Positions 46,025-58,000 of a DNA stretch of 64,000 bases are shown here, one piece after another. Position 1 is the first letter of the stretch. Each line of letters opens with the position of its first letter. The notes beneath the pieces are model-generated. The model was not told the origin of the DNA, did no database searches, and saw only the letters and a list, made by a program, of their open reading frames with translations. Origin of the DNA: Lagopus muta (lineage: Eukaryota > Chordata > Aves > Galliformes > Phasianidae); contig NC_064447.1 of NCBI RefSeq assembly GCF_023343835.1, positions 14,261,501 to 14,325,500 on the forward strand, in the 5' to 3' direction. A program made the translations under genes and the position numbers.

Positions 46025-49000
46025 TTAAACTGGAGAACCTTGTTTCATATGTTCATCTTGTCCAGAGGAAAGCAGTCTTAGTTTCTCTTTCAGCTTTTCT
46101 ATTTCTTCTTCTTGCTCTCTCACCTTTTGCTGTAGATTAGAAATAACCTGGAGATGTGAGACAGCTGATTTATTTACAGGCAGGGATAAATCCTCATCAG
46201 TCTATTGGCACATCTGTAGTCAACTACAAATAAGATTCTGCAGCACAGATCTTAGTGGCAAGGAAAGGGATAACTGTAACAAAGACTGCAGAGCTGACAA
46301 AAAAACCTCAGTCTGTAAATCAAGTGTCCAGTCTTAAGTTACCTGCACTTATTGGCTATTTTTCTCCTTTAAAAGAGCTGGAAACAGTGGCCTAAATATT
46401 CTAACAGGGAATAAAGATCTCAATCACGCAATTCTCTTTAAGTTTTTTAAAATAGGCACAACAAGACAGGAAAGGTAAGGAGATTGTTACAAAGCAATTT
46501 AGCTTTGGTATTTTTTATCCTGAAGGCTGATGTTGGCAGTACTTACGTGTTCTGTGGTATGAAACAGCTCACTGTCACGAAGCTGAGCAGCACTTGGTCT
46601 TTCTGTGGATACCTGACTGGTGAGAAGTTTCACATACTTGGCTTGAACAGGCCATTTCTTGTAGAAGTTACGAGGAATGTGGCCATTCCTTACATTTGTT
46701 ATAACTTCTGCTCTTTCCATTTCTGTTCCAAATGGCTGGAAGAGTTCCAGCAGGATAACACCCAAGCTATACATGTCTGACTGAAAAAGGGCGAAGAAAA
46801 AGTTCTGGGATAATTTCTACTTCAAAGGACCAACCAGATTTCATCTCACAAATACTGCAGCGAGGCTTATGACAAAGTTCCAGGATAAGAAAAGTTCTGT
46901 GGCACTACTGAAGCAACTCAAATTCAAATCCATACAGATTCTTCAAAATGATGTCAGAAACACAACTTCTGTATTTAGCAGGCAAAGCTGAAGTCTGTTT
47001 CAGCAAAAAATGGGAGTAACAGTAATTGACCAAATTGTTGGAAAAAAGAAGAAAAAGTTGGAAAATTAACCAACAATGACATCACTGAGAAGCTTATGCT
47101 TTATTCCTATGATGTCCTACGTATGCCTTACAGAAACAAGAATCATTTTACTGTCAGACTTTCTTTTCAGATGAGTAATGCTATTAACATTAAGCATATA
47201 GTTTCAGTATAGTTACCTGCATAACATTTCAGGTTATGCAGGTAGACATAAAGTGTTACCCTGGACAATCTGAATATCAGCACTAATCAGATAATAGCAT
47301 TTAAATGTGTTAGCATTTAAACTCATAGAGGAGGGGTAAAAAACAAAACCTACCTTGAAGTCGTAGTCAGACCCCTGCAGCTGTTCTGGGGAAGCATATA
47401 GGCAAGTCCCCACACCTGAGGTATGCGTCAGTCCTTTAAAACATGAGTTTAGACTTATTAATGTCTTAAATATGCTAGAAACTTAAAACACTGAAACCTA
47501 CAAAGATTTCTGCTCTTACCATTTATCCTTCCTGTGTGAAACCACTGGTCTGCATCATCCCAAAGGAGGTCTTGGCAGGCTAATCCAAAATCTCCTATTT
47601 TAACTTGATGATCTGATCCATGCAAAAATATATTTCTGGGCTACAAAATAAGACAGTGTGAAGTATTAAGATATCTATATAAAGGATTATGAATTGCTGA
47701 AGTTGCATTCAGCTGTTTCAAAACCTGTTGCATCCAGTCATTCAGATGTGTAGGACAATGATTCTTTCATACTTTCATCAGTGAGATAGAAGAAAATAGT
47801 CAGAGTGTTTCAAATATTCACCACCATTTGGGCAGAAAGACTACTTACGAAGGATCCAGGAAAAAAAAAGAAAAAAAAGGTGTAGCTAAAAGATAATGTA
47901 TTTCTCAGCAGGAAATAGCAGTTATTCAGAACAGTAATGTTAACAGGCAAGAGTGCACAGCAAGTGAGACCTAAGTAGCAGAAATCAGTACTGAGATCAC
48001 TGGGCAAGACCTCACATAAAACAGGAGTCCTCTAAACGACAAGCACAGCTGCAAAGTGCCAAGTGTTTTTCTTGGAAAGCTGGAATGGAAGCAGTTGCTG
48101 AGGCTGCTGAGTGGAGCACTGCCTGCAGAAACACTGAACGAGTTGTCCATTTATTTCAGCTGCACAAGCACGGCTGAGACGCGTTAGCAGCATGTGTGCA
48201 GGGCGAAGGAATACTTGCCACTTAAAAGAAAACAACATCGAATTACTGTTATTTACTTACTCTGCAGCAGTTTCTGAACTTAGTGCAGTGCAATGAGAAC
48301 TGCAAACAATGTTGCTTTATACAGACTTTTCTTCTACTAAATGATCAGCTCTAGCAATACAGCAAACAGAGCAGAAGCCTTTCTTCTGTTTTTAAAACTT
48401 TTGCTGCTTTTGCAATACTTTCAGAATAGCACAATTACTTCACAGCTGTTCTAGAATCAGGCAGCCCAAAACATCACAAAGAAAGGCACTGCTCAAAGGA
48501 AAGAGATCAAACCTTTCAGTTCTGATTACGGATTGTCATTACAAAAACTGTAACTCCCTTGTCTGCCAGTAGCAGAGTAAGCAAGACAGCCAGCAGCACT
48601 GCCTCTGCCTGTGCTTGCCCTGTGTTCTTGTGAGGGCAGAGGACACAGTTTGCACTGTGAAGAGCTACGTGAAATCATGATGGAAAATGGCGGGAGTTAA
48701 AGCTTTACCATCTGTTAGCAACTAGCGAGTGCTTGGAAAGACCCCCACCTCACAGACCTGCTCTCCCTCCAGGTAACACTCCATGTGTTATTGATATGTA
48801 TTTATTTATTTTTAAATTCAAAAAAAAAAAAAAAAAAGAAACATTAAATGATTGTGGTTCCTAATAAGATCAGACTCATAAGTCTTCATAAAATCATAAA
48901 GAGGTCACTGGAACTGCAAGCATAAATAAGTGTTACTCTGGGGAGAAGCCCCTGGGGACTCCCAGCTCACAGCACAGGCCTCCAGGTCTCACGTTCCTCT

Positions 49001-52000
49001 GAAGGATCAGACTAACAGGAATTTCAGAAAGAATCTGTCAGGACCCTCACTGATGTGAGCTGCAGTGAGGCAACAGGAAAGGTTCCTGCAGAAAGTAACC
49101 TGTTTGAAGCCGTGAAAGAAAGGATCAGGACAAATGGTCACAGTGAAGCTTTCACAGTGGAGGATATCAACAAGCAATTGTTTTATTGAGCCGTGCCAGG
49201 AACTCACTGAACAACGTATTCATAAATGATGTAGAAAAAGGGTGAACAGTGAGATAAAGTTTGCTGGCAGAGAAATAAAGATGAGGTCTGAATGCCAAGA
49301 ATCATAAAAGGATCTTGCAAGTCTTAACAGGCAAAAGGAATTCAGTGCAAATAAACATTACAATGCAAATAAAAGGAAAATCAATTTTACACGCACAACT
49401 ATCTCTGAGCTGATTTACTGTTCAAGAGTGGTAACAGCCCTAAAAACAGCAATTTGATGCTCACTGCTGCTTCATGAAGCAAAATGCACATCAACTTTTT
49501 TTTTTTTTCCCTTTGGAGAGGGTAGGGGAGATGAAGAAGAAAACATTACACAGTCCTGTACAAATTAATGAGCTGTCACCTCCAATACTGCCTCTCATCT
49601 CAAATACAATTATAGAAACACAGAACATCCCTGGTTGGAATAACACATAAGAGAAGCGGAATGACGTGCAGAAACAGTTGACAAGAATGTTGAAAATTTG
49701 CAATGTCTTTGATTCAAGGAATCACTAAATATAAAACATAAGACAACCTGTTAGGTTTAAAACAGATCTATTAAATCAAACGTAGAATGGAAAGAGTGAG
49801 TAGGAAATACTACTCAGTCTGTAATTTGTGTAAACAGCAACCAAAAACAGAAGCAGTACCTGTTGACTCAGACTCATTATTGTTGACTATACTGCTGAAA
49901 CTGAAAACTTATCATGGTAATTTTTAAAACAACATTTCCTAATCTGAATAGAGAAAAAGAGGCAAGAATCAGTCACAAGTTCATGGAGCCACGAGTGACA
50001 AGTTTGTCCTAGAAGCTGCTTAATATTGCTGGTTTGCAATAAATCTGATGACAGAACTGACCCATAACAAACTGCAATCCACACATACAGAAGCACTGCT
50101 AGATTGTATCACAGATCCACTGGAACTTCTGCCTGCTTATGATTCTTCTGTGAGTTTCACTGACCTGAAATCAAACTATATTGACACATTTCCATGCTAT
50201 AAAACTGGGAAATACAGGAGGAAATCTAAGTATAACACCATTTGTTGCATTCCTGCTAAGCACATGGGAGCAGTGATTAACAAAAATAAGTTAACGATCC
50301 AGCTGCTCTTCAGTCATTGCCATCCATAGAGCTTGCTCTGTTTTGTGACCTTACTGCGTTACACTCCACCAGTCCAGAAGTATTTTTTTCTCAGTAAAAA
50401 TGAACTAACTTGAAGCTATGTTTTATGTTACAGAAATAACCAGAGGGTACACAGCACTCCATCTCCTACTCAACTTGCCCAGTGCCTGCAGAGCTGCGAT
50501 GTCCACTTGAGGCAAATCTCAGAGAAGTCAGCCGGCTTCACAGAGTAACACAGAAGAGTGTCTCTATCTTGCACAATGTAAAACACCAGATAAAGCCTGA
50601 AATGAGTCACTGCAACTGTGACCACCTGGTACACTCAAGTCAACAGTCTGATGATGACTTTCCACCTACATCCATTCTTTTTGAATACTGTCTCAACACA
50701 AAGGACACAGCCAAATCTGGCTGGATGCCTCTTCACATAGCTGCAGGGTCACTGAATGCAGAGGCAACAGCAACTTTAATTGCATCTGGAGCAAACACCA
50801 ATTCTACTATTACAACTTGTGGCAGAACTGCCCTCCACATTGCAGTGTGTGCAGCATCATCCAAAGCAAGCAGAATTTTAGGTGTCAACATAGATTGCAT
50901 CTCTTTACTATTAAGTAACGGAGCCAATGTAAATATCCAGGATCACGAAGGACGAACAGCTGTGCACGAGGCCTGCTCAGGGGGTAGAAGGGAAATAGTC
51001 CATCTCCTGTTGGAGTATAAAGCAGACATGAACAGTCTAACAAGAGATGGGCAATCTCCAGTCTTTCTTTTTCTTCAAAAGAGATCACATTTAAAAGACA
51101 GAGCACTGCTGAACAAGTTGCTGGGATTCTCATATCCACTGAAGTTAAGAGATAATCAAGGAAATCTACCCACTGGCCTTCTGTTCTCAGAATTCCAAAA
51201 GCTGAAGGACTTCCTTCTAACATTATCGCAGAAATTACTGTCCCTGGAGGATATCTGCAAGATCACTGTTAGAAGAATATATGGAGAGAACAGCAAGTAC
51301 TGGCTCAAAACCAGGCTTCCAGCAACTGTATGGAAATCATTATACAGCTATCAGAATGTAGGAAAACTCGCCTGTGATGACACTGAACGGGAAAGCAAAC
51401 CGAGATACTGTAAACCCTGAACAGCCTTAGAGAAATTAAAATTGATCCAGAATGAAGATTAATGTTGTGTTTTCTAAAGCAGCTCCAAATTTTCATTTGC
51501 AGAGTTTTAATTACCAAGGTAATATTTACACTGATCTCCTCAAAGAGCTGCCATCTCTTTGTGCAGAAAGCTTCTGAAGGAAGCACAGCAGAATACATAC
51601 TCACTTCACTGCTAGTGGATTACGCGAGGTTAAGCAGGAGTGAGGGGGGGGAAAAAGCAAGGTGTAGTCAACCTACACTTCACATTTAAGCTAGCCTGTA
51701 AGTTAAAACTACTCTTATGATTAAAGTTCAAAAAAAAAAAAAAAAAAAAGAAAAAGCCACACACACAAAAAACACAACAAAGGAACACACAAAAAGCATC
51801 TACTGCAATCCATTCAAAGTGTATTTTTCTAAGTCTGATCTTCACTACATTTAATAGGAATTAAAATAAACTTTTAATTCCTTCATCGAAGTCACCTACA
51901 GTCTGAGTCCCTTACATGAGACCAGAACTATTCTGAAAGACAGGAAATAATTTGTAAATGAGGGAAAACTTAAGGAGAAAAAAAAACTATAATTTGAACA

Positions 52001-55000
52001 TATCACAGAATGGCCAGGGTTGGAAGGGACCTCAAGAATCATGAATCTCCAACCCCCCTGCCACAGGCAGAGCCACCAACCTCCGCATTTTATACCAGAC
52101 CAGGCTGCCCAGAGTTTATTTTTCATCTACAACAGAGCTAAATTTAAGAGCCCATATCACCTCAAAAGTTGTGAAGCTGTTTTTTTTCTCCCATCACAGA
52201 AGCTACCCTTGTTTTCTTTAGCCTCAAGTAATAGCCTAACAAACTTACTTTAATGTCTCGATGCATCACTCCCATGCTGTGGATATAGCACACTCCTTCT
52301 AATAACTCTTCAAAAATTTTCATTGTCCAGCTGACATCCACAAGATGGTATGGACCTTGAAGCAATTTACAATATACATTATTTGGCTAAATTTTGACGA
52401 GATATTTAAGTTTATGTTACTATGTCTCACTGAAACCAGTTTATTTATGATATGGAAAAAAAATTTAATGGAACAAGCACGGTTTAAAAGATGGCATTTC
52501 CCACAGTTCTCCTAAGAAAGTATTTTGAAACCCTAGAAAGTCACTAAGCTCAGAATGCAGGTCGGTTCCTGGAACATCACTGCATCTGCATGCAGGTTTC
52601 TCCAAGTCCCACCGCACAGTTGTACGATTATGAATTTAATGACCACAAATCTGAAGTACCTGCATTCACTACCTGTCCATTTGTCTCTGACTGGAATTCT
52701 GCCAATCTGCTTTGAACGAAGAAAAAAAATAACTACTGCTTAAACAACTTTCTGACAAAGAGCAGATTCTCTCATTTAAAAACTGCTCCAAGCAAGCATC
52801 ACCCATACAGAGCTCTGTGTTGGTAACAAGTACGGCTCTGGCATACATTCATTCTTTTTCAGAGCTGTCTGAAACTCACGAACTTGAATCTCTTTTAACA
52901 ACATCTATCATATGAAGGTTCAATACTAGCAGCTATTGGATGAAAGGAATAAAGAATCCAATTAAGAAGATCCATACCATAAGCTGCTGAATTAAAACAT
53001 CCTGCAAATGGACTTCTAATTGAGAAAAGGTCACCATTTGCTTTATAGCAAGGAAACTTTAAAAACAGCTATGAATCTTACCAGCAGCATCCTCTGTTTT
53101 CTCACTGCACCTTCTGTTACGGGCAGCAATCCAGTCCCACAAGGACAGTTCACACAGTTGCATCTGTATATAAAGCATCAAACGATACTCCACCTAACAG
53201 CAAAACATGGTACTGCTGATGTAATGAACAGCATCACCTTACTTATCTTCTTTAAAGGCAACAGAAACTAAATTTATCTTAAGCCAAAATTCAGTTACCA
53301 AAATGACAACAGATACAGTACTACTGCTATCTAGTTTGGGCTTTGATTTTGCTGCTGCTGTTCTTCCTCAAATTTTAGCAATTGTTATAAGACCAAAGCT
53401 AACAGAACAGCCAGCTAGATTTATTATATATATTTAAAGATTCAAATGAGACTATAAAAGCAGTTAGAATTACTGCATGGAGGTTCATTCTGACTTAATA
53501 GCGTAAACAGATATAAAACAAGAAAAGTCAACCTGTTGATATGGAACTATATTTACCCAAACATGTAAAGTCATTCTCAGACAATGCATGTGCTCATTTG
53601 AAAATCTGGACAACTCAAACAGACACATTTAAAACCTGAGATTTCTTTCACAAGGGAACTGCAACTGATAGCAAAGGCTTGAAACATTCCTGAGCTGTCT
53701 GCATTGTACAAAACACCGCAGGGGTAAAACGCCAACAGAGTTTAAGAGGCGTAAGCAGAGTGGTCATTCCTTCCCTCTCACATGTAATCTCACGCTGGAC
53801 AGGGTCAGCATCACATACCCAGGCACTTTCACCAATATCTAAACTAGCTGCTGTTGCTGAATATTGAAAATGTTCAAGTCTGTTGGTTTGTTTTCTTTCT
53901 CAGAAACACAGGAGTAGTACTTTTTACTCATGTAAGCACATCAAAAGGACCCCGAATGACTAACAGAGACTTTTCTGTATGTGAGTTTTGCCACATACAC
54001 ATTGCTCCTCTGGTCGTTTTCCTTGTAATTACTCAAAGTAATAAGAGTCAATACTTTCGGTTCTAATAAAAGTCCTTTAAAATTTATCATTATAAACAAT
54101 TCCTGCAACATCCACATTTTCCTTTGCAGCCTTCATGAAATCAGACAGCAGCTAGATGTACTTAAGGAGAGCTGCACTTACCTCGAACCCTCCACAGAGA
54201 GCTACATCATTCCCAGAGCACTCTTCAGTGCAGGACTCACTTCCAGCACTAGCATCTAGATCCAGACTACAGGGATGGCCGTATGATGAATCATTTTTAA
54301 AATCAGTTGATCTACAGTCAACACTACTGACAGAGTCTGCTTGTAGTTCTACGGGCGATTCACATCTATTTGGTTTCATACCTATTTCCTTACTATTGCT
54401 GTTAGTGAAATCATTCCTTACATCCATATTCTGCACCAATTCACTATCCTGATTTCCAAGATATGTACTGTCGCCAGACTTTCCTTCTTGTGAAGTAAGG
54501 TCAGCAAAAATAATTGAACTACCACTTTCCACACTCTGAATGTGACAGTGATCACTGAAAAGAATAAAGAGAGAGAAATCTAAATGCAGAGTTTTATGCC
54601 GTGCACTTGCAATACACCATTCTGAAAACTTCATTTTTTATTGCAAACTGTACTCCAGAGTTAAGAGTTCAGCTACTTCCCCACATAGAACTTTAGGATC
54701 ATGAACTGCCAAGTGTTGGCTCCAACCTTTTTATATTCTCCCTGAGCATGGATTTCTGGCAGCTGACCCAGATAGCTCACAGACACACACAGCCATAGGT
54801 CACAGTATTCACTGGGTAGAACTATGATGATTCTCTCCTTTTCAGTTAGGAAATTACACTGTAATATTTTTCATTGGACTCCACCTCCTTACCAAAAAGG
54901 CTAATCAACACTTCTGAGAAACAGAAGGCCCCATTGCCCTAAAAAGACTCTGCAGTATTAATCAATGTCGGCAAATACCATAAAGCTTTTGAAGCAAACT

Positions 55001-58000
55001 TGAACCCCATACTACACTCAGGCACTCTGAAATTGTGAGATCCAAGGCAGGCAGGGGTATCCAGCAACATTAAAAAGCAACACGCGCTGAATTCTGTACT
55101 CTTTTAACACTATTTAAAGAAAAATAAAAGCATTTGAATTAAAGAGAAAGAAATGTTATCATTGAGGTGTGTTATACTTACTTGCCACTCTCCTGTTCCA
55201 AGGGTAACGACTGCAACTTCAATATTGTCTTATCTATTGGATGAGAAGATAGGTATGGTACGTCAGGAAACAAAACACGCACATACGTACTACAAAGCAA
55301 TGTTTAAGCTACAGCATCTTCCTGAACTCCACTATTTGTAAATATCTTTCTCTTTGCAATACAAAAGCCATTTCTCAGACTAAGAAACAACCCTGAGTAA
55401 TCTGTTCTTCCTTTTTCTTTAAAAGAAATTAAACATTATAAGAAATCTCTGGAAGTGTTATATTTGATTCCTCTACATGTTCACCCAGCTTTGATCCTTA
55501 ATTACTCAGCCAGTTCAAAATAAGGCCTTAAGTATAAGATAACACACAGCTAAAGAAACAACTCCACAAGGCACCCCCGTCTGCATCACTTTGCTGCTGT
55601 TTTGAAAATATCTGAAATAATTTTCAATAAAATTGTGTACTCACATGAAAAATAAATTTATTTTAGCACACATTTCAGAAGCAAATACAAAATAACTGTC
55701 TTCTAAGCCACAGAAAACCATTAAGTACCACAATACCCACTTGTTACACTTTCAACATTAAATGCCTGTAAGGTATTCCTAGCACTTAGAAGTTGTATCC
55801 TTCAAGATTCTCAACATCACAGACTTAAAAAGACTTGTCTATTTCACTAACTATCAACTAAGTATTTTCTTTTGTGCTTATAGCAGGCTGGAAATCAATT
55901 CACTGACATGAAAAACAATAAGGTCAGACAGAGGATAAGCAAACCTCCCACTAAGTGAAGATCAAAAGATTTAGCTGCATTCCGGAAGAGAAGGAGAAAG
56001 AAAAGTCACCAACAGATTAGGGTTTGAAAAGGACCAAAGGACAAAGTGTGGGAAGAGCTGAGAACAGAGAAACCAGGGGAAAAAAGGGGAGGGGGGAAGG
56101 GGGCAAAGGATGTGTAAAATGAACATAAAAGGAGATTAAAGGAGAACTTATATATATATAAATAAAATAACCAGTACAAAAAAAAAAAAAACAACAAACA
56201 AACAGATTATCTGTAACTGCAGAATTCTATTTGTCAAATTTAAAAGTCTTGCAGACAGCAAAATAAGAGACAGGGTTTTTTTTGCCTTTTGATTGTTTTT
56301 TCCCTTCTGAAGTACTTCTAGGTTCTTTCAGGTTTTCAGAACTGTTTTTTAAGTAGAAAGAGGAGCATAGTGGGAGATTTACCCTACTTTGCCACAACCA
56401 TGACATTTCAAAATATTCCTAGTTTGTGTGGGTTTTTTACTCCTATTCATCACTTGTTCTCCAGTAGCTGAAGTGGTTCATCCCCAAGCATTCTTCTTCT
56501 CCTTCTTAACTCACTACATTTTGAGTTAAAACTTTCTATTGCATTTTACTTAACCTCAGCCAACTTTAAAATCCTTGCCAAATATTTCCGGAAGAAAAGC
56601 TAATGCTTTCATACTTCCAAATTCATTACTGAGTAACAGATAAGCAAGAATTGCTCAATATGCTGTACTTTCCTTTCGGGCAAGCTGTTTGAACCTGTTC
56701 CATCCAAGCAGTGTGATAGCCCACAATATGAGGATGCTGCAGTCCAGCCAGCACTTTAACTTCTCGAAGGACCTAAGAGGACAAAAAACAATCCCAAACA
56801 ACCCGGTATGACTGTTCTTTAGTTAGACTGCTTAGTAAACCCACAATATAACAAGAAGAAGAATTCCTGAGGAAAAATAATAATAATAATAAAAAAAAAA
56901 AAAAAAAAAAAATCAAACAAATAATATTATAAAAATGGAGGAAATGTTCAGCCTGGAGAAGAGGAGGCTCAGGGGAGACCTTATTGCTCTCTATAACTTC
57001 CTGAAGGGAGGTTGTAGTGAGCTGGGGGTCGGCCTCTTCTCTCGTGTCATTAGTGATAGGACCAGGGGGAATGGTTTCAAGCTACGGCAGGGGAGATTCA
57101 GGCTGGACATGAGGAAGTATTACTTTTCAGAAAGGGTGGTCAGGCACTGGAATGGATGCACAGGGAGGTGGTGGAATCACCGAGCCTGGGGGTGTTCAAG
57201 GAAAGGCTGGATGTTGTGTTGAGGGACGTGGTTTAGTGGGAGCTATTGGGAATAGGTGAACGGTTGGACTGGGTGATCTTTTAGGTCTTTTCCAACCTTA
57301 GTGATTCTATGATTCTATGATTCTATGAAATTTGGAAGCTTTAGGACAAACTACAATTTTTATATACGGATAATATAATCAAAATCAAGCTGATATACCA
57401 CAGTGAAAGTACTTAAGTATCTCTTAATCACTTTTTCCTATTAGGTACAGATAAGGTCAAATCTATGGAAACACAGACTAACAAATGTAAATGCTGTTTT
57501 GAATTAATACTTCTTGAAGGCTTGAGAATTTAGTAATGCAGTTAGTGCTTAAATCAAAATCGGTTAGAGCAAACAGAGAATTAAAAGGGATGGGAGGAAA
57601 TGAAATAAATAATACCTTCATGCAATCTCTTCTTGTAGCCTTCTTAATATTGATTTTTTTAATAGCATAGAACTGACCATCTAACTTGTTTCTGACCTGA
57701 AAACAATTGCAATACGACAAAATTATTTGCTGAAGTGTCTAAGTTAGTGAGTTATTAAAACCTTTAGAAACAACTATCTTCTATCAATTAATTTCTGCAC
57801 TCTATATGGATAACTTCTTGCTTTTATCAAAAAGTTAAACCAGGACGAGGCTTTAGCTGTCTAGGATGAAGATTCAATACTTTTGCCTTATTTTCAGGGC
57901 CGCAAACTTCTAATCCAAACTTTGTGAAATACACCCCTCTACAGCTATCTCATCAACAGAAAAATGCCAATAGGCCCTGATGACCAACAAGTCAGGTTCT

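Follow-up and report, generated by a model that had tools for sequence, protein, structure and literature searches.

The EIF2AK1 (HRI) gene on the minus strand of the window (the whole 64,000-nucleotide stretch of Lagopus muta DNA that was analysed) is a complete and ordinary HRI orthologue, in which both the N-terminal helical domain and the kinase domain are intact, and the Cys-Pro pairs of mammalian HRI are not present at the positions corresponding to mouse residues 409 and 550, where Gly415 and Trp560 are found instead. Most of the evidence presented below favours the view that heme control is retained in the bird protein through its N-terminal domain, and it is our considered opinion that heme inhibition is probably kept mainly by means of this domain, with the Cys-Pro pairs constituting a later, nonessential mammalian feature. 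The site responsible for the heme sensitivity of HRI is debated, with the N-terminal histidines and the kinase domain as the contending candidates. As a natural version of the protein that lacks both Cys-Pro pairs and has one histidine of the N-terminal pair, the bird HRI provides a good natural test of this question. The absence of the first Cys-Pro pair and of one histidine has already been published for the chicken protein (PMC12303383), and in those parts of the HRI literature that were covered we found no mention of the Trp in place of Cys553 or of the match between Cys406 and PERK that is described below.

The coding part of the gene (63101-46025, minus strand) consists of 15 exons, which is also the number reported for human and Xenopus EIF2AK1 (PMC5851622), and it specifies a protein of 635 aa in an unbroken spliced reading frame. 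In the spliced minus-strand model 13 of the 14 introns are of the GT-AG type, the exception being intron 7. In Pfam comparisons, the HRI helical domain PF22949 was identified at residues 56-133 with a score of 95.9 bits (cut-off 27 bits), covering profile positions 2-78 of 80, and the kinase domain PF00069 was matched in two stretches, indicating that it is split by a large insert. The protein matched 19 distinct PDB sequences, including those of PERK, GCN2 and PKR, and the top match was to the HRI structure 9rhh (E 2.4e-130; aligned residues 146-235 and 378-591), which we take to be human. Relative to a human HRI sequence assumed as reference, identity was observed for 71/89 residues in the kinase N-lobe, 136/207 in the C-terminal kinase part, 54/108 in the N-terminal domain and 46/124 in the kinase insert, and also for 18 of the 45 aligned residues in the region of the expected C-terminal coiled coil, where the reference is an assumed human C-terminus. 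The possibility of an additional 15-base microexon located between exons 4 and 5 was rejected, as the direct join of these two exons is already in frame. Two other elements are located in the introns of this gene. An ankyrin-repeat ORF of 326 codons (50440-51420, plus strand; Pfam Ank_2, E 1.7e-19) lies antisense within intron 11 and is, judging by the human neighbourhood, presumably ANKRD61, and a repeat in intron 6 (56950-57325, minus strand) resembles an avian CR1 element.

The original prediction that the sequences AAGPY and KKWPV replace the two mammalian Cys-Pro motifs is borne out, with the codons and their coordinates being exact and the flanking residues at both sites aligning to 9rhh. 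Gly415 is encoded on the minus strand by a split GGT codon, whose G (53082) is the last base of exon 10 and whose GT (52355-52354) starts exon 11, and in the alignment of the bird DAAGPY with the ESACPY of 9rhh it is the counterpart of human Cys411 and mouse Cys409. At the second site, where 9rhh has KRCPVQAKY and the bird protein KKWPVQAKY, Trp560 (TGG, 46654-46652, minus strand) corresponds to human Cys553 and mouse Cys550. The same prediction had held that the mammalian HH pair is represented by QH, and the codons of Gln112-His113 (CAG CAT, 59588-59583, minus strand) confirm this, one histidine of human His119-His120 being kept; the human side of this comparison is an N-terminus that we assume to be correct. 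Against this assumed human sequence, the bird has retained His75, His78 and His120 at the corresponding positions and has other residues in place of His80, His119 and His126, and in this alignment His68 (62529-62527, minus strand) is the counterpart of His75, a proposed N-terminal heme ligand (PMC13181343). The numbering of the human sequence for H75, H119/H120, C411 and C553 agrees with that used in PMC13181343, and His119/His120 are reported to be present in the mouse, human and rabbit proteins (PMC12303383). Additionally, Cys406 within the sequence NRRCS (53109-53107, minus strand), which corresponds to human Gly402 and to a Cys in PERK, is a candidate alternative thiolate.

A different Cys-Pro, Cys233-Pro234 (56682-56677, minus strand, with the Cys codon TGC at 56682-56680), is found at the end of exon 7, where the human protein contains Gln-Pro (Gln241), and it is the sole Cys-Pro in the bird HRI. 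In 5000 shuffles of the residues a mean of 0.60 such pairs was expected against the one observed (P = 0.47), and the presence of a Cys-Pro at position 233 is thus expected by chance. As a control for the presence of such motifs elsewhere in this genome we considered ALAS, which is known for its heme control. Three Cys-Pro motifs (RCPF, HCPK and KCPF) occur in two exons (L007 and L008, contig C14) that match the presequence family of ALAS, and the gene to which these exons belong is likely ALAS1. The absence of these motifs from HRI therefore does not reflect a genome-wide trend.

The original prediction placed ACPK at the end of exon 7, and although the residue itself is correctly positioned, the ending of the exon at this point holds only if intron 7 is of the GA-AG type. 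The boundary between exon 7 and intron 7 (56673-56671, minus strand) reads AAAG followed by GAAAGT, corresponding to an apparent non-canonical GA-AG intron. In the gene model with this intron, the AAAG of exon 7 is joined to exon 8 (ATAAGACA), and the resulting junction peptide was aligned against the human protein (HVIQPRADRAAIELPSL), the VQTACPK of the bird aligning with human VHVIQPR. The closest GT lies four bases further on, and its use with the normal acceptor would, on inspection of the sequence, shift the frame and lead to an early stop. We enumerated 45 in-frame, stop-free combinations of GT or GC donors with AG acceptors for this intron, and no GT donor in the range that was tried was in frame with the normal exon 8 acceptor. 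The combinations involving GT donors were rejected, as they drop VQTACPK, add residues that are absent from the human protein, or remove a large part of exon 8. With the normal acceptor, five GC donors are in frame, and one of them (ACA followed by GCATAT) retains VQTACPK as well as the full exon 8 at the cost of three extra residues. Of the possible types, GA-AG fits intron 7 best, though other fits exist, and the GA could also stem from a base error or from an allele carried by this individual. Conserved GA-AG introns are reported from FGFR genes (PMC4176328), and such introns are described as frequent in Oikopleura and in a copepod, with AG before the GA and A after it (PMC7072748), the same context as in the bird gene. 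The GT six bases upstream that the FGFR-type site reportedly needs (PMC4176328, PMC7072748) is absent at intron 7 of the bird HRI.

With regard to the sites at which heme acts, removal of the N-terminal domain of HRI reportedly lowers its heme sensitivity, and the C409S change is described as ablating heme interaction with heme inhibition apparently unaffected (PMC13181343). Heme binding is reported to persist when either His119 or His120 is mutated and to be abolished when both are (PMC9520036). Hemin-induced protection has been reported at residues 113-127, with none at C411 itself (PMC12235045). Counting against heme control through the N-terminal domain, the same source describes C411 as conserved, reports protection in the helices 392-408 and 416-426 on either side of it as well, and suggests a heme contact with the kinase insert. 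Ricketts et al. (PMC9520036) likewise report that hemin inhibits human HRI constructs from which the N-terminal domain and the insert are missing, and they attribute the inhibition chiefly to the kinase domain. The papers listed, from a collection in which few subscription titles are included, contained no measurements of heme binding or heme inhibition for the HRI of a bird. The explanation that we favour is that heme would bind the N-terminal domain of the bird protein at His113, perhaps together with His68, and that the heme-bound domain would then act upon the kinase to inhibit it, as is proposed in one model of mammalian HRI. The Cys-Pro pairs would, according to this explanation, have been added later on the mammalian line and be dispensable for heme inhibition.

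It could be suggested that the missing cysteines are due to an assembly error, that the gene is a pseudogene, or that a second HRI copy retains these residues. The GA donor at intron 7 could indeed point to a wrong base or to an allele that is damaged; however, the reading frame is intact over all 15 exons, the chicken HRI reportedly also lacks the CP motif (PMC12303383), and no second HRI locus was detected among the 69 of 141 candidates that were scored in the 1.03-Gb, 165-contig assembly. The genome search gave 28 HRI matches, of which 13 fall within the HRI exons of the window, and the remaining 15, located elsewhere and only 31-56% identical, are best interpreted as portions of other kinases. 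By the genetic code, one base suffices for each of the two changes from Cys. A slip of the assembly at both codon 415 and codon 560 is unlikely, and explanations of this kind taken as a whole appear to us highly improbable. It was also predicted originally that heme sensing by avian HRI is different or weak and that the kinase responds mainly to other kinds of stress. The first part of this stands in a conditional form: the mammalian kinase-side Cys-Pro ligand is absent, and therefore if the bird HRI binds heme there its coordination must be different, and the missing cysteine may affect inhibition. Weak sensing, however, does not follow, because the helical N-terminal domain is complete with the counterparts of His75 and His120 kept, and because inhibition is reportedly unchanged by C409S (PMC13181343) and either His119 or His120 suffices (PMC9520036). 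That other stress inputs, DELE1 among them, are the main ones is not supported by the sequence.

We therefore consider it unlikely that heme sensing has been partly lost from the bird HRI and that other stresses are the main drivers of the kinase, for although both Cys-Pro pairs and one of the two histidines are absent, and the hemin-inhibited human constructs without the N-terminal domain indicate that a kinase-side ligand may matter (PMC9520036), the domain itself (PF22949) is intact, one histidine of the pair is reportedly enough for binding (PMC9520036), C409S is reported to be without effect on inhibition (PMC13181343), and the Hri1 and Hri2 proteins of S. pombe are described as heme-responsive without Cys-Pro (PMC12303383, PMC13181343). 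A different kinase-side ligand in the bird protein is possible, for which Cys406, common to PERK, would be a candidate. A swap by which a different kinase-side cysteine now serves, either Cys406, nine residues before Gly415, or Cys233, would be in keeping with the presence of Gly402 and Cys411 in human as against Cys406 and Gly415 in the bird, and with the occurrence of NRRCS in PERK, but Cys406 is not followed by Pro and the lone Cys-Pro at 233 needs no explanation beyond chance, so that we hold it to be quite improbable. The more specific proposal that non-mammalian HRI uses the Cys406 of NRRCS, and that mammals swapped in the Cys-Pro nine residues on, has in our estimation only a slim likelihood.

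In relation to human and mouse HRI, the bird protein shares the gene structure, the helical N-terminal domain, the split kinase with its insert and the flanks of both Cys-Pro sites, and it differs from them in having Gly415 for Cys411, Trp560 for Cys553, Gln112 for His119, Cys406 for Gly402 and Cys233 for Gln241. The chicken, Xenopus and zebrafish proteins, which could be compared by description only, are stated to be without the CP motif or Cys while one histidine is kept (PMC12303383), as in the bird studied here, and the same sentence of this source labels the frog and fish proteins as heme-responsive. To regard the missing motif as an avian peculiarity, as was originally proposed, is thus too narrow. 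As fish, frog and bird HRI are alike, a single gain of Cys-Pro by the mammalian lineage is a simpler history than its loss in birds, with one gain as against three losses, a comparison which draws upon the one sentence in PMC12303383. The Cys-Pro pair is a mammalian feature and not one that defines the HRI family, because other vertebrates reportedly lack it at the first site. A scan of the contig collection with the exon-14 peptide yielded two relatives among 116 candidate stretches (35% identity over 69 residues and 56% over 24), both from bacterial MAG contigs, and these were set aside as uninformative. The S. pombe paralogues Hri1 and Hri2 are reported to be hemin-sensitive and, like the bird protein, to have a kinase domain devoid of obvious Cys-Pro pairs (PMC13181343), although they differ in being fungal, and on the histidine pair of Hri1 the accounts in PMC12303383 and PMC13181343 conflict. 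In PERK (EIF2AK3), the second site is occupied by Tyr-Pro (QKYPQE in 3qd2 and QKYPCE in 4g31), and hence an aromatic residue before the Pro, like the Trp of the bird HRI, occurs in a sister kinase. PERK is without the helical domain of HRI and responds to a different stress input. Near the first site the NRRCS of PERK (3qd2) is identical to that of the bird HRI, whereas 9rhh has NKRGR, and at this spot the bird HRI is, in terms of its residues, more PERK-like than the HRI of 9rhh.
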